22,682 bases of DNA. Source: Lachnospiraceae bacterium (GTDB lineage: Bacteria > Bacillota_A > Clostridia > Lachnospirales > Lachnospiraceae). The translations under genes were made by a program, and so were the position numbers. The stretch covers positions 1 through 22,682 of the forward strand of contig JAFZAZ010000002.1 in NCBI GenBank assembly GCA_017561985.1. The letters are read 5' to 3'. Under the pieces are notes generated by a model. It ran no database searches and had not been told where the DNA came from. It saw nothing but the letters and a program-made list of their open reading frames with translations. Position 1 is the stretch's first letter. The number at the start of each line of letters is the position of its first letter. Positions 956 through 11,455 of the stretch are shown here, in pieces.

Positions 956-2413
956 ATGGCAAACTATAACCCTAATTCCATGGTCGCGGAGGAATTCATC
1001 AACGATGAGGAGATCCGCGATACTCTTCGCTATGCAGAGGAACACAAGCGTGACCTTCCTCTGATCGAAAGCATTCTTGAAAAGGCAAGACCGAAGAAAA
1101 CCGCAAAAGGCTGCACCTGTGCAGGCCTGACTCACCGCGAAGCCTCGGTCCTTCTCGCCTGTGACCTCCCCGGGATCAACGAGCGGATCAACGAGATCGC
1201 CGAGGAGATCAAACTCGCATTTTACGGAAACCGAATCGTCATCTTTGCGCCGTTGTACCTCTCGAACTACTGTGTCAACGGCTGCGTCTACTGCCCGTAT
1301 CACCTGAAAAACAAGCACATCCCTCGCAAAAAGCTCACGCAGGACGAAGTGCGCGCCGAGGTCATCGCGCTTCAGGACATGGGCCACAAGAGGCTTGCCA
1401 TCGAGTCCGGCGAGGACCCTGTGAACAACCCGATCGAATACATCCTCGAGTGCATCAAAACCATTTACAGCGTGCACCACAAAAACGGCGACATCCGCCG
1501 CGTGAACGTCAATATCGCGGCGACGACCGTGGAAAATTACCGCAAGCTCAAGGAAGCGGGCATCGGAACGTACATACTCTTCCAGGAGACCTACCATAAA
1601 GAGAGCTACGAGAAGCTGCATCCGACCGGACCGAAGCACAACTACGCGTACCACACCGAGGCGATGGACCGCGCCATGGAGGGCGGCATCGACGATGTCG
1701 GACTCGGAGTTTTGTTCGGACTGGAGCTGTACAAGTATGAATTTGCCGGCCTCATCATGCATGCAGAGCACCTCGAGGCCGTACACGGCGTAGGTCCGCA
1801 CACGATCAGCGTGCCCAGAGTCAAGCGCGCCGACGACATTGATCCCGACGTGTTCGACAACGGAATCGACGACGACACCTTCGCCAAGATCACGGCGTGC
1901 ATCCGCCTCGCCGTGCCTTACACCGGAATGATCATCTCGACCCGCGAGACCGAGCAGGTCCGCTCGAAGCTGCTTCGCCTCGGCGTATCCCAGGTGAGCG
2001 GCGGCTCCCGCACCTCGGTCGGCGGCTACGCCGGCTACACACCCGACGTGCGCCCGCACGACACCGAGCAGTTCGACGTGTCCGACCAGCGCTCGCTCGA
2101 CGAAGTCGTCCACTGGCTGATGCAGAGCGGCCACATCCCGTCCTTCTGCACCGCCTGCTACCGCGAAGGCCGCACCGGCGACCGCTTCATGAGCCTCTGC
2201 AAGACCGGCCAGATCCTCAACTGCTGCCACCCGAATGCCCTCATGACACTCGCCGAGTACCTCGTCGACTACGCGTCGCCCGCGACAAAAGAAACCGGCT
2301 TCAAGATGATCGAGGAGGAACTCTCCAAGATCCCGAACGAAAAAGTCCGCAGCATCGCCGCGCAAAGTATCGAGGACATCAAGAACTCGAACCGCAGGGA
2401 TTTCAGGTTCTGA
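956..2413 (+). CDS. hydG: [FeFe]-hydrogenase maturase HydG (radical SAM tyrosine lyase)
   Basis: HydG cleaves tyrosine to p-cresol and dehydroglycine and turns the fragment into the CO and CN ligands of the [FeFe]-hydrogenase H-cluster. The 485-residue protein has the usual family length. The radical SAM cluster motif CX3CX2C is at C106, C110 and C113 (CVNGCVYC). The C-terminal CX2CX22C motif for the auxiliary cluster is at C398, C401 and C424. The ThiH-like barrel segments EDPVNNPIEYI, QETYHKESYEKLHPTGPK and ISVPRVKRA are intact. A GAAAGGA-type ribosome binding site precedes the ATG. hydF follows after 65 bases. HydE and the hydrogenase structural gene are not in this window. No sign of damage is seen. 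Confidence 0.97.
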   Translation: MANYNPNSMVAEEFINDEEIRDTLRYAEEHKRDLPLIESILEKARPKKTAKGCTCAGLTHREASVLLACDLPGINERINEIAEEIKLAFYGNRIVIFAPLYLSNYCVNGCVYCPYHLKNKHIPRKKLTQDEVRAEVIALQDMGHKRLAIESGEDPVNNPIEYILECIKTIYSVHHKNGDIRRVNVNIAATTVENYRKLKEAGIGTYILFQETYHKESYEKLHPTGPKHNYAYHTEAMDRAMEGGIDDVGLGVLFGLELYKYEFAGLIMHAEHLEAVHGVGPHTISVPRVKRADDIDPDVFDNGIDDDTFAKITACIRLAVPYTGMIISTRETEQVRSKLLRLGVSQVSGGSRTSVGGYAGYTPDVRPHDTEQFDVSDQRSLDEVVHWLMQSGHIPSFCTACYREGRTGDRFMSLCKTGQILNCCHPNALMTLAEYLVDYASPATKETGFKMIEEELSKIPNEKVRSIAAQSIEDIKNSNRRDFRF

Positions 2414-2430
2414 TCATTATAACCCGGAGA

Positions 2431-2456
2431 CGGAGAGCCCGCCAAAAGGCTCTCCG
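2431..2456 (+). other. stable hairpin between hydG and hydF
   Basis: Nine paired bases, CGGAGAGCC and GGCTCTCCG, enclose an eight-base loop 17 bases after the hydG stop. It is followed by GTTTCCGC rather than a run of T, so it is not a canonical terminator. It may protect the upstream message end or lower hydF expression relative to hydG. The pairing is seen directly; the role is inferred. Confidence 0.55.
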
Positions 2457-2478
2457 GTTTCCGCACACGGAGGACAAC

Positions 2479-3681
2479 ATGAGTTTACAGGAAACCGTAT
2501 CGGCCGAACGTATCCACATCGCATGGTTCGGAATGCGAAATGCCGGCAAATCCTCCCTTGTCAACGCAGTGACCGGCCAGGACGTCAGCATCGTCTCGGA
2601 CGTACCGGGTACGACGACGGACCCGGTCCGAAAGGCGATGGAGCTGTTGCCGTTAGGGCCCGTGCTGATTCTGGACACGCCCGGTCTCGACGACGAGGGC
2701 GAGCTCGGCGCGCTTCGCGTCGCTCGCACGGGGAAAATACTGGCACAGACCGACATCGCTGTCCTCGCGGTAGACGCAGCAGCCGGATGGCGTGAGCAAA
2801 ACCGCGAGCTCCTCACGGAAGTCGCGTCGCGAGGGATTCCATTTGTCGTAGCATACACCAAATCCGACCTCGCGGACGAGGCCGTAAGAGCATCGAGACG
2901 AAGCGAGGCGCAAAGCCATCCGTACGTGTTCACGAGCGCAGCGACCGGCGAGGGCATCCATGAGCTCAAGGAACTGCTCGGCACATTTGCCCCGAAAGTT
3001 GCGAAGGAGAAGCGTATCCTGACCGACCTGGTCGCGCCCGGAAGCACCGTGGTGATGGTGACCCCGATCGACGCATCGGCGCCCAAGGGAAGACTGATCC
3101 TCCCGCAGCAGCTGGTGCTCCGCGAACTGCTGGACGCGCACTGCCGTGCGCTAGTCTGTCAACCCGAGGAACTCGCGGGGACACTCGCATCGCTCCGCGA
3201 CGCACCGGCATTGGTCGTGACGGACTCGCAGGCATTTGCCAAAGTACAGGCCGACGTGCCGAAGGAGGTACCGCTCACCTCATTTTCCATATTGTTTGCA
3301 CGCTACAAAGGCAACCTCTGGACGCTCATAGACGGCGCGGAAGCCATCGACCGGCTGAAGCCCGGCGGGAAAGTGCTGATCGCCGAGGGCTGCACGCACC
3401 ACAGACAATGCGAGGACATCGGAACCGTCAAACTGCCCGGCTGGCTCGAAAAGCGCCTGGGCTTCCGCCCGGAGTTCACGTTCACCTCGGGCGGGGATTG
3501 GCCGGACGACCTCACCGAATACGCGCTGATCATCCACTGCGGCGGCTGTACGCTGCCGGAGCGCGAAGTGGCCCGCCGCCTTGCGGCCGCCGAAACCGCC
3601 GGCATCCCGATGACCAACTACGGCATCGCAATCGCATACATGAACGGAATCCTGAAAAGAAGCACCGCGATCTTCCAGTGA
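2479..3681 (+). CDS. hydF: [FeFe]-hydrogenase maturation GTPase HydF
   Basis: HydF is the scaffold on which the 2Fe subcluster of the H-cluster is assembled before transfer to apo-hydrogenase. The 400-residue product has an N-terminal Era/TrmE-like GTPase domain with P-loop GMRNAGKS (18-25), DTPG (66-69) and TKSD (127-130). A dimerisation region follows, then the cluster domain with CxHx45HCxxC (C305, H307, H353, C354, C357), which fits the HydF signature. The ATG at 2479 is chosen because GGAGG lies just upstream and homologues start close to the P-loop; the same frame is open much further upstream inside hydG, but that is overlap. The stop codon lies within the downstream terminator hairpin. 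Confidence 0.96.
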   Translation: MSLQETVSAERIHIAWFGMRNAGKSSLVNAVTGQDVSIVSDVPGTTTDPVRKAMELLPLGPVLILDTPGLDDEGELGALRVARTGKILAQTDIAVLAVDAAAGWREQNRELLTEVASRGIPFVVAYTKSDLADEAVRASRRSEAQSHPYVFTSAATGEGIHELKELLGTFAPKVAKEKRILTDLVAPGSTVVMVTPIDASAPKGRLILPQQLVLRELLDAHCRALVCQPEELAGTLASLRDAPALVVTDSQAFAKVQADVPKEVPLTSFSILFARYKGNLWTLIDGAEAIDRLKPGGKVLIAEGCTHHRQCEDIGTVKLPGWLEKRLGFRPEFTFTSGGDWPDDLTEYALIIHCGGCTLPEREVARRLAAAETAGIPMTNYGIAIAYMNGILKRSTAIFQ

Positions 3682-3825: not shown

Positions 3826-4131
3826 TTATTGATTATCCTGTTTAGCGTTTCTAAACCGCGTCAGCTGCACGCTCTCCACCGCCACCACGATGCTCAGCAC
3901 GGCGATCAGCGCGACCATCCAGATTGGAGCTCTCATGCCGCCGCTCTGGTAAGCGCCGCTGCTCGAGGTACTGTTCTGCATCGCGATCTCGGACTGCTGA
4001 AGGTCCGCGATCTCGAATGAATTCGTATTTTGGGCATCGGTTTCAGCTGCTGCCACGGAGACCATACTCAGACCGAGGATGACCAAAACGAGCAACAGAC
4101 TTATCGTTTTCTTTCCTATCGATTTCTTCAT
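3826..4131 (-). CDS. small exported or membrane-anchored protein of unknown function
   Basis: The 101-residue product is not recognised. It starts with a classic signal peptide: basic MKKSIGKK, a hydrophobic stretch rich in L, V and I, then an AAA-type cleavage site near residue 29. A Ser/Asn/Gln-rich segment of about 35 residues follows, then a second hydrophobic stretch (WMVALIAVLSIVVAVESV) and a short polar tail. The mature protein would be a small envelope protein with a C-terminal anchor. The ATG at 4131 is preferred over one nine codons earlier because GAGGA precedes it. A TATACT-like -10 lies at 4172-4177 on the same strand. The next gene upstream (4224-4556) also encodes a small membrane protein, so the two may be related in function. 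Confidence 0.7.
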   Translation of the reverse strand: MKKSIGKKTISLLLVLVILGLSMVSVAAAETDAQNTNSFEIADLQQSEIAMQNSTSSSGAYQSGGMRAPIWMVALIAVLSIVVAVESVQLTRFRNAKQDNQ

Positions 4132-4223
4132 ATTTTCCTCAACACTCCTATCCGTCATACGAACTATCCACAGTATACCCTATGATTTCCGCGATTCACG
4201 TTTTCTTACAAAAATGTAAGCGA

Positions 4224-4556
4224 CTACTGTTTTTTGTGTTTTCTCTCAATACTTCTGCGCACGATCATCGTGATGATCACTCCCGCGGCAAATGCTGCTA
4301 CCGCAGTAAGCACGTATCCTCCCACACTGTCGGAAAGCATCGAAGCTCCGGTGAAAAGGTTCTCGTCAAAGCTCACCTCTCCGCCGCTCAGTCGGGTCGC
4401 AATTCCGACCACCACCGCCAGCAGTACCATGCTGATTCCTCCCCACAGGTACATTGACCGGCGGGTCTTCTCTCTCTCGATCTCCCGCGCCCTCTGATGA
4501 AGGCGGGCGATCCGCTCCTGATCTGTTCTCACTTGTTTCATCCCTTCTTTTTCCAA
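4224..4556 (-). CDS. small two-helix membrane protein of unknown function
   Basis: The 110-residue product is not recognised. Residues 1-33 are charged and probably helical (DQERIARLHQRAREIEREK). Two hydrophobic segments follow, near 35-53 (MYLWGGISMVLLAVVVGI) and 78-97 (GGYVLTAVAAFAAGVIITMI), joined by an acidic loop, then a basic tail, RRSIERKHKKQ. Both termini are predicted to be cytoplasmic by charge. The start is uncertain: a TTG at 4556 has AGAGG upstream, and an ATG at 4541 has a purine run too close to it. The gene is 92 bases upstream of the small exported protein gene on the same strand. Confidence 0.65.
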   Translation of the reverse strand: MEKEGMKQVRTDQERIARLHQRAREIEREKTRRSMYLWGGISMVLLAVVVGIATRLSGGEVSFDENLFTGASMLSDSVGGYVLTAVAAFAAGVIITMIVRRSIERKHKKQ

Positions 4557-4625
4557 AGAACGCCTCTGCGGTTAACCCGACCGCATAGCGCCGCCACTAA
4601 CACGTTTCACTTTATAAGATACAAA

Positions 4626-4661
4626 AAAAAATGATTCTCCCAGGGGGGAAAATCATTTTTT
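4626..4661. terminator. strong bidirectional hairpin with flanking A and T runs
   Basis: An A-rich arm ending ATGATT pairs with AATCATTTTTT over eleven bases, then one mismatch and a four-base C/G core around AGGG. It has A runs on one side and T runs on the other, so it could end transcription on either strand. No plus-strand gene precedes it. On the minus strand it is a second barrier about 90 bases beyond the terminator at 4752-4789. The rest of the 4557-4822 gap shows no convincing gene. Confidence 0.65.
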
Positions 4662-4822: not shown

Positions 4823-5884
4823 CTAGCGGAGCGAAATCTCCGTTCCGTTAATGCTGATGGCTGTGATCTCCTCAAACGGGAGTACGCGGATGTCCCCGGT
4901 TCCCCTCTGCATAAACTCGCCGATCAAACCGTAGTTCCAGTAATAGTATAACTTTTCGCCGTCGCCGTAACATCCGGCCCTGACCGCCTTCACAAGCGGC
5001 CCGCTATTCTCAAGATGCTCCCAAACGCTTCCGTCTTCCAGTTTTACATATTCAAGAGTCAGCATATCACGCACTAAGCCGTCGTTCATATCCTCCGACT
5101 CCCCGTAAACGGTGATTCTGGTTGTGGATAAATCAACATGCGTTAACGTATAATCATCGTACTTCTTACTGACGGGTACGGTCTTCTTTCTGGAAGCATA
5201 GTCATTGGTCCACTCAAACGGATACGTGTCAGTACTGCCGGCACCGTCCGTAACCGTGACCGTAACCTGCATCGGTACGTCATTGATTTTCACATCCTGA
5301 TTCGTGCCCGAGTAATCAATGCTGTAAAGGTACCAGAGTCTGCCGTCTCTGCAGAAAGAAGCGCTTCCTGCGCCATAGGTGGGCTCACTCGCCAGAATTC
5401 CGACCAGCGTTTCTGTATGTGTCCATCTTTCTTCCGGAATCAGTGCCTTACCGGAGAAGTCAAACGTATAGCCGAGTTCTGTGTCTTTGATCCAGCCGTC
5501 CGGACAACCGGGTAACAGAATATCCGTACTGAATTCACAGTAAAGAACTTCATCATCGCCGATAACGCTCTCGAGGGTAACCGTCACCGGACCTTCGTGG
5601 ACGATTTCCATCGGAATATAGGCTTCGCCGAGTTCTTTCGGCGCGTTTTCTTTGGAAATCAGGCCTAAGAAATCCATTTTCAATACTCCGCTTGCTGCCA
5701 CAACCGTTCCCGCAAGCAAAACTACAAGGCAGGCCGCAATCAATGCTACGCGGAATACTCTTCTTCTGCTCTTCCCGGTACCGGGTTCCGCCTTCAAAGA
5801 GGATTTCGTTCCGCAGGGATCGGCTTCCTCGATGAAGCGCTCGTCAATGTCGGTCATCGCTTTATTTAAATCAAATCCTGTCAT
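4823..5884 (-). CDS. membrane anti-sigma factor, DUF4179-like, partner of the adjacent ECF sigma factor
   Basis: Likely holds the sigma factor encoded just upstream at the membrane until an envelope signal arrives. The 353-residue product has a short cytoplasmic N-terminus with LNKAMTDIDERFIEEAD, a motif typical of Clostridia anti-sigma proteins of the DUF4179 type. A basic patch (KSRRRVFR) precedes one transmembrane helix near residues 46-66. The remaining 285 or so residues are extracellular, beta-rich, and rich in Thr, Val and aromatics. The ATG lies 4 bases after the sigma stop, with AGAAAGGG inside the sigma gene end as ribosome binding site, so the pair is translationally coupled. A terminator follows. 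The family placement rests on domain order and context; the ligand of the outer domain is unknown. Confidence 0.82.
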   Translation of the reverse strand: MTGFDLNKAMTDIDERFIEEADPCGTKSSLKAEPGTGKSRRRVFRVALIAACLVVLLAGTVVAASGVLKMDFLGLISKENAPKELGEAYIPMEIVHEGPVTVTLESVIGDDEVLYCEFSTDILLPGCPDGWIKDTELGYTFDFSGKALIPEERWTHTETLVGILASEPTYGAGSASFCRDGRLWYLYSIDYSGTNQDVKINDVPMQVTVTVTDGAGSTDTYPFEWTNDYASRKKTVPVSKKYDDYTLTHVDLSTTRITVYGESEDMNDGLVRDMLTLEYVKLEDGSVWEHLENSGPLVKAVRAGCYGDGEKLYYYWNYGLIGEFMQRGTGDIRVLPFEEITAISINGTEISLR

Positions 5885-5888
5885 AAAA

Positions 5889-6449
5889 TCATCCCTTTCT
5901 CTTAAGGTGCTTTCTCAGCTTTTTCTTTAAACTGTAAAGATGATTGCTGATGTACTTTTCGTCTTTCCCAATCTGCTCCGCAATCTCAGCTACCGAATAC
6001 GAGTACCAGAATCTCCGCAGGAAAATCGTCCGCTTTTCCGCGGACAGTCCGTCAAGGAAATCTTCCAGTTGCTTCCTCAGTCCTTCTTCGTCGGCAGGCT
6101 CAGTCGTGCGGTTGTCCGGAATACACTCGGCCAGCTCCTCGTAGGATGTCATTGTAACATCTCCCCCGCGCTTCTTCGCCCGGTTGCTTCTGAGCCTCTC
6201 GAAAGAAAGATTACGTATGCTTCGCATCAGGTATGCTTTCAGGTTGTCGGGTTTCGCCAGCGGAACGGACTTCCACACATGGAGAAGCGCGTCATTCACA
6301 CATTCCTCCGCGTCTCTTTCGTCCGTGAGAATGTTCCGTGCAAGACGAAGCATTTGCGTGCCGTATTTCTTCTGGACCGCTTCAACGGCCTCATCCGAAC
6401 CGCTTGAGAACAGCTCAACGATTTGGGTGTCTTCTGTCATTATTTCCAT
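5889..6449 (-). CDS. ECF-type RNA polymerase sigma factor (first module)
   Basis: The 186-residue protein has the standard two-domain ECF layout. Region 2 spans about residues 25-95, with the RDAEECVNDALLHVWKS core and YLMRSIRNLSFERLRSNRAKKR. Region 4 spans about 130-183, with the helix-turn-helix YSVAEIAEQIGKDEKYISNH and a basic C-terminus. The ATG at 6449 is preceded by AGGAGG; a second ATG three codons inside is possible. It is followed after 4 bases by its anti-sigma gene. An AT-rich 125-base gap separates it from the PrsW gene upstream, and no terminator is visible there, so read-through from the upstream operon is possible. A candidate autoregulated promoter is at 6504-6526. Confidence 0.93.
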   Translation of the reverse strand: MEIMTEDTQIVELFSSGSDEAVEAVQKKYGTQMLRLARNILTDERDAEECVNDALLHVWKSVPLAKPDNLKAYLMRSIRNLSFERLRSNRAKKRGGDVTMTSYEELAECIPDNRTTEPADEEGLRKQLEDFLDGLSAEKRTIFLRRFWYSYSVAEIAEQIGKDEKYISNHLYSLKKKLRKHLKRKG

Positions 6450-6574: not shown

Positions 6575-7258
6575 CTATATTGTTTCGCTTTTTTCGGGCT
6601 CTTCCGGCGGCAAATTCCGCTTCCGGCACTCCCCGAGTCTGCCCCGCCGCTCACTGATGATCAGGATGATCGCCATCGTGACAACCGGGATAAAAAACCC
6701 GACGGTTGCGACATAGCCCTTCTGCGAGACGAACACATTGTAGATACCGTGGAACGAGATTGCCATCGCGAGAAGGCCGAACGTCCCGGCGATCCGCAGC
6801 CACTCGCGGTCCCACACATGCAGGAACCCCGCTACGATGATGCTCGCACACACGACGTGCATGGCGCCCGTGCCGAATCCGCGGATCAACAGATGCGTAA
6901 GCTTAGCCGCACCGTTTTGCGTCATGAAGCATACATTTTCAAAGGTTGCGAAGCCGATCGCGGTCATCATGATGCCGTCGACCGCATTGTCCGTATCGGG
7001 CTCAAACACTACAAGGTAAAAGAGCGCAGGCAGGAATTTCATGATCTCCTCGACTACCGGCGTAAGTTCCATCGATGCCGTCACCGTGTCGACTTCGAGC
7101 CCTCCCGCAAGAAATGTGCTGATGTACGAAGACAGCAGGCAGGTCGTCATGCCTCCCAACAGAAACAAAAGCGTACGGCGCGCCTTTCCGTGCATGCGGA
7201 GCACGGCAATCGTCAGAGGCGCTGCGAGGCAAATGAACACATTTTCCACGTAATTCAT
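6575..7258 (-). CDS. PrsW-family intramembrane metalloprotease
   Basis: PrsW proteins are multi-pass membrane metalloproteases; the Bacillus one cuts the anti-sigma factor RsiW outside the membrane and so starts release of SigW. The 227-residue product shows the family signature: EExxK at E70, E71 and K74 (TPVVEEIMKFLP), FENV at 106-109, a single His at 134 within GAMHVVCASIIVAG, and His170 in SFHGIYN. About seven hydrophobic segments surround these motifs. The ATG overlaps the preceding stop by 4 bases (7255-7258). It is the last gene of a six-gene unit and lies next to a sigma/anti-sigma pair, which suggests an anti-sigma substrate. The substrate itself is inference. Confidence 0.87.
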   Translation of the reverse strand: MNYVENVFICLAAPLTIAVLRMHGKARRTLLFLLGGMTTCLLSSYISTFLAGGLEVDTVTASMELTPVVEEIMKFLPALFYLVVFEPDTDNAVDGIMMTAIGFATFENVCFMTQNGAAKLTHLLIRGFGTGAMHVVCASIIVAGFLHVWDREWLRIAGTFGLLAMAISFHGIYNVFVSQKGYVATVGFFIPVVTMAIILIISERRGRLGECRKRNLPPEEPEKSETI

Positions 7259-7884
7259 CGGTCCACCGCCTTTCTCATTGCCGGCATGAACAGGAACAGG
7301 CTTACCGACAGAAGCAGGTCACACCAGAAGTACATGTTGTCGATCGTGTCGCCGTCCCAGATGCAGGACGCCGTCCACAGCGCGTACTCCGCAAAGCAGA
7401 AAAACAGCACTGCCGCGTAAAATGCGCGAAGCTTCGCCTCCTCGCCACGCTTCCCGCGGATCGACAGAAGGCCGTCGCTGCCGCGCCAGATGAGGACCGT
7501 CATAATGAATGCCAGAATGGTGTTGCTGACATAGGATCCCCAACGCATGTAGTACGCAGCCATGCCGAACGTAAAAATCGGGACGACCCACAACCACCGA
7601 TGCTTCGGCCGGAACGAGCGCTCGCCCTGCAGCTCCTCAAAAAGAAGCAGCAGGAACAACACCATCGCGTACCAGTCCAGCGACGAAACATAATCAAGCT
7701 GCGGGGAATCCCGGTAAAAGATCAGAAACAGCTGCCAATACAGATCACCCAGGAAGCATGCGCCGAGGAACAAACCCAGCAAAAGCCATGCGCGTTTGCG
7801 TGTTTTGAACGCACGAAAAAAAGCGACCGACGCACAGACCCCGGTCACGACAACCTGAACAGCATTGACAGCGCTTTCAATCAT
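7255..7884 (-). CDS. multi-pass membrane protein of unknown function in the sensor/sigma operon
   Basis: The 209-residue protein is mostly hydrophobic, with about seven predicted helices and short basic loops (RAFKTRKR, RPKHR, RGKRGEEAKLR). No catalytic motif or known domain is recognised. It resembles 7TM sensor modules in size and helix number. The ATG overlaps the preceding stop by 4 bases (7881-7884) and AGAGGA sits just upstream; its own stop overlaps the PrsW start. The tight coupling suggests a stoichiometric role with PrsW and the 60-residue protein, possibly as a membrane sensor or anti-sigma component. Confidence 0.8.
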   Translation of the reverse strand: MIESAVNAVQVVVTGVCASVAFFRAFKTRKRAWLLLGLFLGACFLGDLYWQLFLIFYRDSPQLDYVSSLDWYAMVLFLLLLFEELQGERSFRPKHRWLWVVPIFTFGMAAYYMRWGSYVSNTILAFIMTVLIWRGSDGLLSIRGKRGEEAKLRAFYAAVLFFCFAEYALWTASCIWDGDTIDNMYFWCDLLLSVSLFLFMPAMRKAVDR

Positions 7885-8063
7885 TTTTCGTCCTCTTTCC
7901 GCGACATTTCAATTTCACGCCATTTACGGAGTCGGAGACAAAAGATCGTCACCGCGATTCCGAGAAGAAATGCCACGCCGCCGACAACCAGAAAGCTGAG
8001 AATCCCGGCCTCTGCGAAAGCATTCTCGCTCAATACGGCTACCGCCCGTTCAACTACCGGCAC
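7881..8063 (-). CDS. 60-residue single-pass membrane protein in the anti-sigma position
   Basis: The product is not recognised. A 19-residue N-terminal segment precedes one strong helix (about 20-43), followed by a highly charged tail with RLRKWREIEMSRKEDEK. By the positive-inside rule the tail is cytoplasmic. The start is a GTG with AGGAGG nine bases upstream, inside the end of the sigma gene, which it overlaps by 14 bases. Its stop overlaps the next start by 4 bases. The gene directly after an ECF sigma gene is often its anti-sigma factor, but this protein is too short for a zinc anti-sigma domain, so an anti-sigma role is only a hypothesis. Confidence 0.75.
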   Translation of the reverse strand: MPVVERAVAVLSENAFAEAGILSFLVVGGVAFLLGIAVTIFCLRLRKWREIEMSRKEDEK

Positions 8064-8601
8064 TTGTGATTCCCTCCTTTTCCAGTTCCCGTCTCATATG
8101 CTCCTTCGCCCGGGCAAGCAAGTGGTCCACTCGCTTTACCTTGACCCCGAGAACCGCCGCTGCCTCCGCGTAGCTCATGTTCTCGATGTACACCAGCTGA
8201 AGAACCTCCCGAAGCTCCGGCTCGATTCTTCCCAGGCAAATGTGAAGCGTTCTTTGTTTATCCTCATCCAAAAGAGCGTCGTCCGGCCTCAGACCGTCCG
8301 TGAGCTCCTCCATATCGTCGATTGATTCCTCAACGCTGCGTGACCGGTTGTAATGGAACCGGGCCGCCATATTTCGTGCCGTCTTGTACAGATACGCCCG
8401 GAAACCGTCCTTGCGGATGTTCGGCTTCTTGACCATCAGCCGGGCAAACGTCTCGATCATCATGTCTTCCGCATCTTCCCTGTTACGCAGATATCCGTAC
8501 AGGAACAAAACGAGACCGCTGCCGTGACGGATCATCAATTCGTCATATGCAGCGGTGTCGCCGGCAAGAAACCGTTCGTACAACTCGTCATCATTTTCCA
8601 T
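8050..8601 (-). CDS. ECF-type RNA polymerase sigma factor (second module)
   Basis: The 183-residue protein has region 2 near residues 20-85 (FLYGYLRNREDAEDMMIETFARLM, then AYLYKTARNMAARFHYNR) and region 4 near 115-175 (LQLVYIENMSYAEAAAVLGVKVKRVDHLLARAKEHMRREL). The linker is long and acidic (EELTDGLRPDDALLDED). The start at 8601 is chosen because GGAGG precedes it and family members begin near this point. An in-frame ATG at 8676 overlaps the response regulator stop by 4 bases and would add 25 residues. The gene sits between a two-component system and membrane proteins ending in PrsW, so its activity may be controlled both by transcription and by membrane sequestration. Confidence 0.92.
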   Translation of the reverse strand: MENDDELYERFLAGDTAAYDELMIRHGSGLVLFLYGYLRNREDAEDMMIETFARLMVKKPNIRKDGFRAYLYKTARNMAARFHYNRSRSVEESIDDMEELTDGLRPDDALLDEDKQRTLHICLGRIEPELREVLQLVYIENMSYAEAAAVLGVKVKRVDHLLARAKEHMRRELEKEGITSAGS

Positions 8602-8672
8602 CACACTTTCCTCCCGTGCCGCTTCGAAACAACTGCCCCCGGACTGCGCAATGCAGCCCTTCACAGTTTTCG

Positions 8673-9344
8673 TCATACGCGGTCCAGAAGATATCCCTCG
8701 TTCGCGTTGTACACCACGGTGTAGGGCGTCTCATGCTCCTCGAGCTTGCGGTTCAGGCGGGAAATGGCCGTGTAGATCGCGCTGTTGTTGGTCGCAAACG
8801 GAGAGTTCCACACGTTGCGGTACAAATCCTCCTTCTCGATCGGCTGCCCGCCGCTCGTCACGAGCATCAGCAGCAGGGAAAATTCTTTCTTCGTCAGAAG
8901 AAGGTCCTCGTTCCGGTAGCTCGCCACGCCGGACACGGTGTCAAGCTTCATCTCCTCGTACCACACGCAGCGGTTGCCCGTGTTCACGCCGCGGAGTCTC
9001 GCCTCCACGCGCGCCACAAAAACACCCAGGTCATAGGGCTTGGTCATATAGTCGTCGCCGCCGGCGCGAAGCGCCTTGATGATATCCGCATTTTCCCCGA
9101 GAGCCGAGAGGAACAGGATCGGAACATCATACTCCTCACGGATCGTATGGCACAGCGTGACTCCGTCGCTGTCCGGAAGCATGACGTCGAGAACCACAAG
9201 GTCCACGTCCTCGGACGCAAGCTGCTCCAGGCAGCTCTTTCCGTCATATGCCCGGAGGACATTGTAATCCTCCATCACCAGCGCCTCGTAATTGATTTCC
9301 ATGATGTGCGGATTATCTTCCACAAGCAACACGGTGTAACTCAT
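8673..9344 (-). CDS. OmpR/PhoB-family response regulator
   Basis: The 223-residue protein has a receiver domain (about 1-118) with the acidic pocket VEDN, phospho-acceptor Asp53 in LVVLDVMLP, Ser in LFLSA, and the conserved Lys in DDYMTKPYD. A winged-helix DNA-binding domain (about 130-223) contains LTKKEFSLLLMLV and the recognition helix region NNSAIYTAISRLNRKLEE. It is encoded directly after its kinase with a 4-base overlap (9341-9344) and AAGGAG as ribosome binding site. The next gene is an ECF sigma factor, which is an uncommon continuation of a two-component operon. Its likely targets include the operator-like repeat at 11343-11363; this is inference. Confidence 0.93.
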   Translation of the reverse strand: MSYTVLLVEDNPHIMEINYEALVMEDYNVLRAYDGKSCLEQLASEDVDLVVLDVMLPDSDGVTLCHTIREEYDVPILFLSALGENADIIKALRAGGDDYMTKPYDLGVFVARVEARLRGVNTGNRCVWYEEMKLDTVSGVASYRNEDLLLTKKEFSLLLMLVTSGGQPIEKEDLYRNVWNSPFATNNSAIYTAISRLNRKLEEHETPYTVVYNANEGYLLDRV

Positions 9345-11272
9345 TGTTCTTTCTCCTTAGGTATCGTAAATCGGAAAGTGGTCCCCCCCGGACCGGTGCT
9401 TACCAGCTCCATCTCCCCATCATGCATCGCAACGGTCTCCTTGCAGATCGACAGACCGAGCCCGTTGCCGCCGTCCGTCGTGTACCCCCGCTCAAATATA
9501 TGTTCAACGCTCTCTGTGGGAATTCCGTCTCCGGTGTCGGACAGCGTGAACTCCGCCGCGTTGGATTTCTCAATCAAAGCAAGCGTGATCGTGCCCTGCT
9601 CGGTATGCCGGCTCGCATTGACGATCAGGTTGATCAAAACCTGCAAAAGCAACTCGAAATTGCCGTGCACCACGCCGCCGTTTCCTGTCACGACCAGCTT
9701 GTTGCCGCGCTTCTCGCACACCGGCTTCGTAACCGCAGCCGCACTCTTCGCAAGGTCCGACGTGTCCACCGGGCCGAGCTCGGCGTCCTTGGGCCTTCCG
9801 TACGTGTACGCCATCAGGTTCGAAACCATCTCGCCAAGGCGGTCTGCCTCCGAGCGGATCGTCGTCAGACGTTCCGAAGTCTGCTCGGACATTTTCCCCT
9901 TCTGGATCTGCATGTCGATCAGCTGTGCATAGCCGGAGATAACCGCGAGCGGCGTCTTCAGCTCGTGCGCCACCGTCTGCAGGAAGTCGCGGTTCATGTC
10001 GTTGACGCGCTGCAGAACTTCGTTGCGGCCTTTCTCCTCCTCGAGTCTGACGGTCTGCTGCTGAATCTTATAGTTGATGATCACGGCAAGGATCAGAATA
10101 CACGTGAGCATTCCGAACGGCGTGACGCCGTAGTGAGCGACCAGCGAGTTGCTGCCGGTGCCCATGCCTTCCTGGTACATCGTGTAGATCAGGAACAGCA
10201 AGGCCGCTATCGTACCGATATCCGCAAAATCGGGCCTGCCGTGCTTTCGGTACCACAGCACAAAACGAATAACCATCAGAACCGCGATGACAAGGCAGTA
10301 GTAATAACAAATATGGCAGAGCAGCACGAGGTCATGCGTATCCATCGTAAAATGAAGGATCGCCAGCACCGCGTAGATGCCCGTAAACACGATCTTATCC
10401 CTGCGAAGCAGCACCTTCGGGAAGAATACTGCCGGAAGAAGGTAGCCGACCGCGGGAATCAACGATGCAACCAGAACGGACAGCCGGTACCGAAGCAGGA
10501 AGTCAATCTCCGGAAGGAACATCTCGAAAGCAAAGAACTGATTGCGGAACGCGATCAAAACACAGCACAGCGCCAGAATACCGTAGCCGCGGTTGCGCAG
10601 ATGCGCCGCGCTGATCAGAAAAAACATCGCAAGGAACAAAAGGCCGCACGAAGTGAACAGCGAGTACATCGTGATGCCCCGCACGAACTTGGTGATATTT
10701 TCCGGGGTGGAGATCGTGGTGGACTGGATGAAGCCGCCTTCGTTGTGCATGTAGTTGCAATACTGATAGATCAACTCGACCTCGCCGGTTTCTCCGGTGT
10801 AGAACGGAAACGTCATAAAACGACCGCCGTGAACCGCCTTCGCGGGATCGTCGGAAACATAACCGATATTCAGTTCCTCACGTCCGTTCACGAACACGCG
10901 CGTCGCATAGTCGATACCGTAGCTGGCGATTTCCAGGTACTGGTTCGGCTTTGTCTTCAGGATTACGCGGTACGTTCCGAGGTTGTAGTCCCAGACGTCC
11001 TTGCCGCTCTTCGAGTTGACGACCGCCTCGTCCTTGAAATCCTCGGGTCCGTACAGATGCCCCGCATAGTAGTCCCAGCTGTTCACCATGTGATAAACGC
11101 TCTTCGAAAAATCGACGTCCCTCGCATCCACGACGCCGTTCTCCGGGTGAACCTGCGGCATTTCCGGCTGCAGCCGGCCGTTTACATACAAGTAAAGAAG
11201 CCCGATGCCGGCAATGACAAGCGCGGGAAGAATCCAACCCAGTATTCGATTGTACGCTCGAGCCTTTCTCAT
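9341..11272 (-). CDS. sensor histidine kinase with 7TMR-DISM-like sensory region
   Basis: The 643-residue protein has an N-terminal helix (about 10-28), then an extracellular region of about 180 residues that looks like a jelly-roll sensory domain (GTYRVILKTKP, YATRVFVNG). About seven helices follow (roughly 210-395), matching the 7TMR-DISM arrangement. After a short coiled coil, the HisKA domain has His436 in VAHELKTPL, and the HATPase domain has the N box NLIVNASRH near 552, DTGDGIP near 580 and GGNGLGLSI near 602. The ATG at 11272 has AGGAGA five bases upstream; the frame is open 37 codons further but without a ribosome binding site. It is the first gene of the six-gene unit and partner of the adjacent regulator. 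The signal is unknown. Confidence 0.91.
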   Translation of the reverse strand: MRKARAYNRILGWILPALVIAGIGLLYLYVNGRLQPEMPQVHPENGVVDARDVDFSKSVYHMVNSWDYYAGHLYGPEDFKDEAVVNSKSGKDVWDYNLGTYRVILKTKPNQYLEIASYGIDYATRVFVNGREELNIGYVSDDPAKAVHGGRFMTFPFYTGETGEVELIYQYCNYMHNEGGFIQSTTISTPENITKFVRGITMYSLFTSCGLLFLAMFFLISAAHLRNRGYGILALCCVLIAFRNQFFAFEMFLPEIDFLLRYRLSVLVASLIPAVGYLLPAVFFPKVLLRRDKIVFTGIYAVLAILHFTMDTHDLVLLCHICYYYCLVIAVLMVIRFVLWYRKHGRPDFADIGTIAALLFLIYTMYQEGMGTGSNSLVAHYGVTPFGMLTCILILAVIINYKIQQQTVRLEEEKGRNEVLQRVNDMNRDFLQTVAHELKTPLAVISGYAQLIDMQIQKGKMSEQTSERLTTIRSEADRLGEMVSNLMAYTYGRPKDAELGPVDTSDLAKSAAAVTKPVCEKRGNKLVVTGNGGVVHGNFELLLQVLINLIVNASRHTEQGTITLALIEKSNAAEFTLSDTGDGIPTESVEHIFERGYTTDGGNGLGLSICKETVAMHDGEMELVSTGPGGTTFRFTIPKEKEQ

Positions 11273-11342: not shown

Positions 11343-11363
11343 GTTGTACACGCAGTATACAAC
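11343..11363 (-). promoter_or_regulatory. operator-like inverted repeat overlapping a -10 element upstream of the kinase operon
   Basis: On the minus strand GTTGTATAC, three bases, then GTGTACAAC form two nine-base arms that match as an inverted repeat at eight positions. The repeat covers TATACT (11354-11359), a good -10, while the -35 is weak, as expected for an activator-dependent or autoregulated promoter. The kinase start is about 75 bases downstream. The symmetry is seen directly; the binding protein is inferred. Confidence 0.5.
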
Positions 11364-11455
11364 CTTTCACGCGCAAAATCCACGTTCTTGCTTTTTTGTA
11401 AGCCGATCCGGGCCGTTTTGAACGAAAAATTCCTCTAAATTTGACTAATCAGACG

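Follow-up and report, generated by a model that had tools for sequence, protein, structure and literature searches.

A labile join of a two-component system and an ECF sigma factor/PrsW cassette in a Lachnospiraceae bacterium

On contig JAFZAZ010000002.1 of a Lachnospiraceae bacterium (assembly GCA_017561985.1), a histidine kinase (HK) and a response regulator (RR) are encoded directly before an extracytoplasmic function (ECF) sigma factor and a PrsW-type protease, which raises the question whether this two-component system (TCS) and the sigma/PrsW part form one established signalling cascade or were brought together as separate units. A sequence-only reading of the locus had proposed a single envelope-sensing cascade with two input points. 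We analysed the whole stretch of 22,682 nucleotides, referred to as the window, together with relatives of its genes and found that the locus is a labile join of two cassettes, kinase-regulator and sigma-SMP1-7TM-PrsW-SMP2, in which SMP1 and SMP2 are small paralogous membrane proteins and 7TM is a protein with seven transmembrane (TM) helices. A single relative shares the joined state, and it is called L001 for its locus and G001 for its genome. The joined operon of the window comprises the following features:

11387..11402, minus strand: putative regulator box A (CTTACAAAAAAGCAAG, pattern match), 27 nt before TATACT, upstream of the kinase gene
11351..11364, minus strand: -10-like element TATACT for the kinase operon; conserved in L001
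9341..11272, minus strand: sensor histidine kinase, 643 aa, with a TM helix, an extracellular beta-sandwich (about 45-188), seven TM helices, HisKA (His 436) and HATPase, from Pfam and the structure model
8673..9344, minus strand: OmpR-family response regulator, 223 aa (Asp53), from its family match
8602..8672, minus strand: RR-sigma seam, 71 nt, in which no TATAAT was found
8050..8601, minus strand: ECF sigma factor, 183 aa, from its likely start; the longest open reading frame (ORF) reaches 8676
7881..8063, minus strand: SMP1-delta, 60 aa, with the loop, TM2 and C-tail of the SMP family, lacking its N-terminal cytoplasmic helix and TM1
7255..7884, minus strand: seven-helix protein (7TM), 209 aa, with a tentatively rhodopsin-like arrangement in the predicted structure
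6575..7258, minus strand: PrsW-type intramembrane protease, 227 aa, from Pfam and invariant residues

The six ORFs are all encoded on the minus strand and match the families first assigned to them, and the four overlaps noted at the outset (9341-9344, 8050-8063, 7881-7884 and 7255-7258) are exact. Among the 80 ECF/PrsW relatives and the window, sigma and SMP1 overlap by exactly 14 nt in 41 and 7TM and PrsW by exactly 4 nt in 54, part of the deviating lengths being an artefact of mechanical ORF starts; as these lengths are conserved, the overlaps are not due to chance. The sigma factor itself carries regions 2 and 4 only (Sigma70_r2 34.8, cut-off 24; Sigma70_r4_2 46.8, cut-off 25.7; TIGR02937 87.9, cut-off 42.9), which places it among the ECF type. 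Its start is most likely the ATG at 8601 and not that at 8676, given a GGGAGG upstream and the alignment with homologue starts, so that RR and sigma do not overlap and are instead separated by a 71-nt gap, which is the seam of the two cassettes. Upstream of sigma, TATAAT is present in 31 of 71 relatives' loci. An autoregulatory ECF promoter was also considered for this place and rejected, as it occurred in none of 73 upstream regions, which are rich in TATAAT instead. The shared direction, the tight junctions, a likely single transcript starting at the box upstream of the kinase, and two membrane inputs all agree with the sequence-only reading.

A single established cascade is not supported: the separation of the two parts in relatives, which the sequence-only reading had named as refuting it, is what the relatives show. 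An alignment scan of species genomes with PrsW confirmed 205 places, of which the best 80 were used as ECF/PrsW loci; nearly all are metagenome-assembled genomes (MAGs) from ruminant-gut and other Clostridia and Erysipelotrichaceae, with mechanical ORFs as gene calls. The kinase was searched in 397 genomes of the family of G001 and in 22 genomes of the genus, and its surroundings were compared in 13 genomes besides the window, the 28%-identity kinases of G047, G086 and G150 being excluded from the counts. Within the family, the kinase was detected at E<=1e-50 in 9/397 genomes (six of them with at least 40% identity) and a PrsW of this family in 29/397, and both occur together in only two, G001 and G040, in the latter on different contigs. 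Nine genomes of the genus carry the kinase and eight PrsW; G001 and G418 have both, adjacent only in G001. The kinase-regulator pair thus adjoins the ECF/PrsW part in one of 13 kinase-bearing genomes and one of 80 ECF loci; a sigma gene is present in 75 of the latter, and 52 of these extend at least 2.7 kb upstream of it. A conserved six-gene operon was therefore rejected, as the cassettes are separate in relatives; this separability is read directly from the sequences, as are the genes, the SMP1 truncation and both motifs with their positions described below. The PrsW and 7TM proteins of the window have entries on 6 contigs, evidence against a chimaera.

In the genus, the kinase-regulator cassette adjoins citrate synthase and tRNA-Val, normally without an ECF part. 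Citrate synthase lies upstream in the window and in 8/9 genus genomes, the G418 contig ending before that point. The content behind the RR varies, with the ECF module in the window and G001, giant proteins in G404, G408, G040 and G052, small signal-peptide/TM proteins in G413, G416, G417 and G190, and nothing recognised in G411, G418 and G090; the contig of G378 ends 724 nt after the RR. The closest kinases, those of G411 (80% identity) and G418 (79%), have no ECF module at the locus. Upstream of the kinase in G378 lie an ECF sigma factor and a 565-aa membrane-type partner (L092:105-2368), another TCS/ECF neighbourhood. The window kinase matches HisKA (1.2e-14) and HATPase_c (1.1e-23) in Pfam, and its model places an extracellular beta-sandwich and seven TM helices ahead of the kinase core, with Wntless and CBM35/beta-glucuronidase sandwiches as best Foldseek matches.

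The second cassette is well conserved by itself, the order sigma-SMP1-7TM-PrsW-SMP2 being complete in 61/80 loci. Six loci show sigma-7TM-PrsW-SMP2, seven another order, and in six SMP2 was not found; three of the latter extend less than 1.4 kb to the right, and L015, L045 and L066 extend 2.2, 4.7 and 8.9 kb. SMP1 and SMP2, each about 100-110 aa long, are paralogous and consist of an N-terminal helix (MRTNEERIxxMHxRAxEL), TM1, a short loop, TM2 and a charged tail. The 327 SMP homologues retrieved mostly bear hypothetical names in their source, and the SMPs gave weak scattered Pfam matches with no family above cut-off; a DUF4179 label on one homologue (P0262) was not borne out by Pfam. HxxxCxxC in the cytoplasmic domain is the motif of zinc anti-sigma (ZAS) factors; the SMP1 and SMP2 alignments keep the His and show no CxxC in the N-terminal part.

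The 60-residue single-pass protein of the earlier description is present, but as a shortened form of this two-pass family. Its start matches that of relatives' SMP1, with the 14-nt overlap with sigma, and L001 has a similar 68-aa form. The window has 165 nt and L001 173 nt between sigma stop and 7TM start, compared with a median of 325 nt over 62 loci with full SMP1, 105, 91 and 119 nt in L004, L034 and L080, and -4 to 29 nt in six loci without SMP1. These short distances indicate repeated shortening or loss of SMP1, with SMP2 usually kept. AlphaFold2 predicts the 7TM protein to be a helical bundle of seven-TM type (mean pLDDT 89), and no Pfam family reaches its cut-off for it; after fold searches without a decisive match, its resemblance to the microbial rhodopsin fold is tentative. 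PrsW scores 63.3 bits against PF13367 (cut-off 23.5), placing it in the PrsW/M82 family, and E70 E71, E107, H134, H170 and N174, which we take to be the catalytic membrane-embedded Glu/His motifs, are invariant in 22 aligned sequences. With 29.5 bits against the NCBIfam equivalog NF033739 (cut-off 225), it is of the same family, but not the RsiW-cleaving orthologue. One PrsW homologue of 387 aa (P0051) has a tandemly duplicated PrsW domain, which may be an assembly effect.

SMP2 with its promoter, box B and the small gene behind it complete the locus; like box A, they had not been noticed in the sequence-only reading:

4608..4641, minus strand: ECF-type promoter of SMP2, GGGAGA...GTATCTTATAAAGTG, matrix score 25.2, the sole above-threshold site in the window
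4224..4532, minus strand: SMP2, 102 aa, with intact N-terminal helix (RTDQERIARLHQRAREIE), TM1, loop and TM2, from the alignment
4205..4220, minus strand: putative regulator box B (CTTACATTTTTGTAAG, pattern match), 27 nt before TATACT
3826..4131, minus strand: small surface-type protein, 101 aa, with signal peptide, linker and C-terminal TM; G001 has a homologue at the corresponding place

In L001, SMP2 directly follows PrsW, and in the window it lies beyond an inserted pair of a second sigma factor and its putative partner (4823-6449). Its ECF-type promoter has the form GGGGAATT, a 12-14 nt spacer and GTATCTATATAAGTG, and GGGRA-N13-17-GTATCT was found upstream of SMP2 in 35/72 loci (shuffle mean 0.02). 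A position weight matrix built from 36 other sites, window and L001 excluded, gave 25.2 for the window and 22.1 for L001, the maximum in six random 22-kb sequences being 5.7. SMP2 gaps score at least 10 in 50/74 cases, and about a third are without this promoter form. In strict genome scans, alongside which a relaxed scan was run, the canonical ECF site occurs mainly at the cassette itself. This suggests a one-promoter regulon for the cassette sigma, a suggestion that is weakly based, since it leans on strict patterns and MAG genomes. A terminator-like hairpin with a T-tract (4623-4659, minus strand) overlaps the -35 element and spacer of the SMP2 promoter, and similar overlaps are seen in L017, L021, L011 and L049; the two transcripts may be insulated from each other by such a joint terminator-promoter.

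The second motif is a palindromic box, CTTRCA-N4-TGYAAG, set about 27 nt ahead of TATAMT. It stands before the kinase and secreted-protein genes and likely, by its sequence and placement, serves as the site of the RR. Boxes A and B are its only matches in the window (shuffle mean 0.04; at least two in 1/100 shuffles). Up to 500 nt upstream of HK, CTTRC-N6-GYAAG is present in 11/14 genomes including the window, each with TA[TA]NNT at 26-28 nt, and no box lies within this distance in G090, G040 and G052. After the RR, all 14 genomes have a box, with TA[TA]NNT at 26-28 nt in 12 of them (not G413 and G417). Of 32 listed cases, whose sources were partly picked for the box, 21 have exactly 27 nt between box and TATANT. 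Box B lies past the ECF module in both the window and G001, before the small signal-peptide/TM protein present in both, and the strict box occurs in one of 80 ECF loci, namely L001. Strictly palindromic boxes number 1-5 in each of 11 kinase-bearing genomes and 0 in each of 3 without the kinase. Raw counts are not above the reversed control (4 vs 7 in G001, 9 vs 11 in G411), and the signal rests on the strictly palindromic subset and the positions, not on raw counts. As to further boxes, the flanks of 18 extra ones and L138 were inspected (19/20; C121 of G052 was left out): 11 of the 19 precede signal-peptide-like ORFs, judged by eye and often very long, and 8 do not. Boxes away from the TCS locus possibly mark a dispersed surface-protein regulon. 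Very long signal-peptide-like ORFs stand behind such boxes in L199, L201, L205, L207, L208, L210, L211 and L138.

Both cassettes are found beside very large surface proteins. In 59 of 73 loci with SMP2, a same-strand gene follows within 1.5 kb; 47 of these 59 products have a signal-peptide-like N-terminus, and among these 47 a length of 300 aa or more is reached by 45 and of 900 aa or more by 33, many being cut by contig ends. In a scan of eight giants, including one from a TCS locus, collagen, FG-GAP, fn3, Ig, Big_2 or LysM domains were seen, with none in that of L025. The giants behind the TCS in G040 and G052 share 34% identity over about 1,160-1,200 columns and 44% over about 1,070 columns, respectively, with giants after ECF modules, so that the two cassettes appear to serve related giants as alternatives. 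At the joined loci of the window and L001 there is no giant, and collagen/FG-GAP giants are absent there. An orphan giant of G001 (L137) was considered as a target of either motif and dismissed, having no ECF site above threshold and no box.

Given where box B stands in the window and G001, past the ECF module, the simplest reading is that the module was inserted between the RR and a surface-protein gene of the TCS. We regard it as probable that the ECF cassette entered at this place, the TCS now supplying sigma and PrsW/SMP2 gating it, and the two control systems, apart in relatives, seem to act jointly on one small surface protein. The individual binding, cleavage and regulation steps and the resulting AND logic are our inference from sequence. 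The kinase, with its carbohydrate-binding-like sandwich and 7TM part, would phosphorylate the regulator, which at box A would drive transcription of kinase, regulator, sigma, SMP1-delta, 7TM and PrsW, and at box B that of the small surface protein. Sigma would now be without a sigma-A promoter of its own and depend on box A. SMP2 would hold sigma at the membrane by its N-terminal helix as the presumed sigma-binding part, until PrsW, with the 7TM protein as its possible sensor or adaptor, destroys SMP2 upon a second signal; SMP1-delta would be a remnant retaining the second helix. Freed sigma would then transcribe SMP2, which would close a negative feedback loop, with read-through into the gene of the small surface protein. 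In line with the model, the ratios between window and L001 are of purifying type, pN being below pS for HK, RR, SMP1-delta, 7TM, PrsW, SMP2, the small protein and citrate synthase; these eight rows were kept and the sigma row, out of register, was dropped, and as pS is high the ratios are rough.

Several observations weigh against this model. The anti-sigma role of the SMPs is putative, as they have neither a ZAS motif nor a Pfam family above cut-off, and the seam or the RR interior may hide an unrecognised sigma promoter. A relaxed box search of G001 yielded 4 matches and its reversed control 5, with fewer than two mismatches only in the pair at the locus, and the strict ECF pattern matched twice in G001, once at SMP2, and the relaxed pattern not at all. 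Shortened SMP1 forms likewise occur in L004, L034 and L080, for which no TCS turned up within an upstream reach of about 7.5 kb for L004 and of 517 and 48 nt before sigma for L034 and L080; truncation is hence not tied to the TCS and was rejected as a hallmark of TCS control. Finally, a tree of HK and RR, rooted on six other genus members, groups the window with G411 and G418 and leaves G001 outside (split support 94). The join is accordingly unstable, the module being either older than the split and then lost in G411/G418, or gained twice.

A rival view is that the two systems are neighbours without a functional link, the ECF cassette having landed behind the RR and being reached by read-through transcription, with each system working independently. 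The cassettes are indeed apart in nearly all relatives examined, the join is missing beside the closest kinases, and the place behind the RR takes varied genes in the nearest relatives with other cargo. We nevertheless consider this view unlikely, because window and L001 retain the six-gene order and the shortened SMP1 at 60-76% protein identity, no own sigma promoter is visible any more, and the small gene flanked by both motifs is the same in the two species.

The loss from SMP1 of the part likely to bind sigma would also fit pure TCS control as for Streptomyces SigE, with sigma unchecked, its amount set by the regulator, and PrsW and 7TM as leftovers or acting elsewhere; passages of PMC6767563 and PMC8999054 provide a precedent without an anti-sigma factor. 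An intact SMP2 behind a sigma promoter, and a PrsW with its motif residues in place and 67% identity to that of L001, make this quite improbable. We give still less credence, only a very slight chance, to the idea that PrsW processes a secreted surface protein rather than an anti-sigma factor, comparable to PrsW-linked polymorphic toxins. The giants that often follow the cassette (47 signal-peptide-like products among 59, 33 of them with at least 900 aa) speak for it, as does the proposal of PrsW as a toxin-releasing protease in a passage of PMC3482391. However, the PrsW domains of polymorphic toxins are fused to the toxin, whereas PrsW is a separate gene in a sigma operon here, and window and L001 retain it although they have no giant at the locus.

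Beyond the inserted, doubly gated cassette that we favour for the window, the relatives point to a wider scheme whose odds we put at about even. The sigma factor, two paralogous two-TM mini anti-sigmas, a rhodopsin-fold 7TM sensor, PrsW and a private promoter would form a class of ECF cassette undescribed in the literature searched, each dedicated to the adjoining giant, with TCS pairs as an alternative switch for the same protein family; in the window lineage, a TCS would have captured such a cassette, so that one surface protein is gated by two signals, and SMP1 would be decaying until only its second helix is left. If true, two of the main bacterial signalling types have been joined into one circuit whose separate, joined and lost-again states are visible within one genus, and a widespread undescribed switch for very large surface proteins, with testable motifs, may exist in gut Clostridia and Erysipelotrichaceae. 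The joined locus would be a natural example of regulatory-circuit merging in a gut-type bacterium related to Lachnospiraceae, and the small two-helix SMPs are candidates for a new kind of anti-sigma factor and PrsW substrate.

The remaining features of the region are the inserted pair between PrsW and SMP2:

5889..6449, minus strand: SIG2, second ECF-type sigma factor, not at this place in L001
4823..5884, minus strand: putative anti-sigma partner of SIG2, 353 aa, with a weak DUF4179 match below cut-off

Convergent to the module end, window and G001 carry radical-SAM and GTPase genes (956-3681, plus strand, in the window), which by their resemblance to HydG/HydF may be hydrogenase maturation genes.

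Among known systems, 7TMR-DISM histidine kinases share the extracellular beta-sandwich and seven TM helices with our kinase model; the architecture is similar, and the kinase scores 14.9 bits against Pfam 7TMR-DISM_7TM, below the cut-off of 29. In the passages of PMC5358783 on Bacillus subtilis SigW-RsiW-PrsW, PrsW cleaves the membrane-bound inhibitor RsiW of an ECF sigma factor in regulated intramembrane proteolysis. The pairing of an ECF sigma factor with a PrsW-family protease is shared, but the SMPs have no zinc-binding CHCC-type anti-sigma domain and two TMs instead of one, and here PrsW belongs to the sigma operon, is accompanied by the extra 7TM protein and stays below the NCBIfam equivalog cut-off. 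Comparable to the SMP pair, by description and not by sequence, are the two small membrane proteins YhdL and YhdK, which are encoded in the sigma operon and jointly inhibit B. subtilis SigM according to parts of PMC6827917; that system differs in having no PrsW or 7TM, and the SMPs are mutually paralogous, one of them behind the sigma factor's own promoter. The cassette sigma-SMP1-7TM-PrsW-SMP2 was not found described in the open-licence PMC literature searched. The premise that TCS and ECF systems are normally encoded apart holds among the relatives, but the nearest precedent is characterised and has both in one operon. Excerpts of PMC8999054 and PMC6767563 name SigE/CseBC and SigQ/AfsQ1Q2 as TCS-controlled ECF genes, and in Streptomyces coelicolor sigE-cseA-cseB-cseC (ECF39), where the TCS controls sigma transcription, an ECF sigma factor and a kinase/regulator pair share one operon, as order and spacing indicate for the window and L001. 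In the accounts given there, sigma comes first and anti-sigma factor, PrsW and 7TM are lacking, whereas here kinase and regulator come first and a membrane cassette with PrsW and SMP2 remains; SMP1 is shortened and SMP2, a putative anti-sigma factor, intact, and the RR scores 138.6 bits against the CseB model (cut-off 350). As far as searched, the cassette and its capture are without precedent, but the joined TCS-ECF logic has one in the SigE system.

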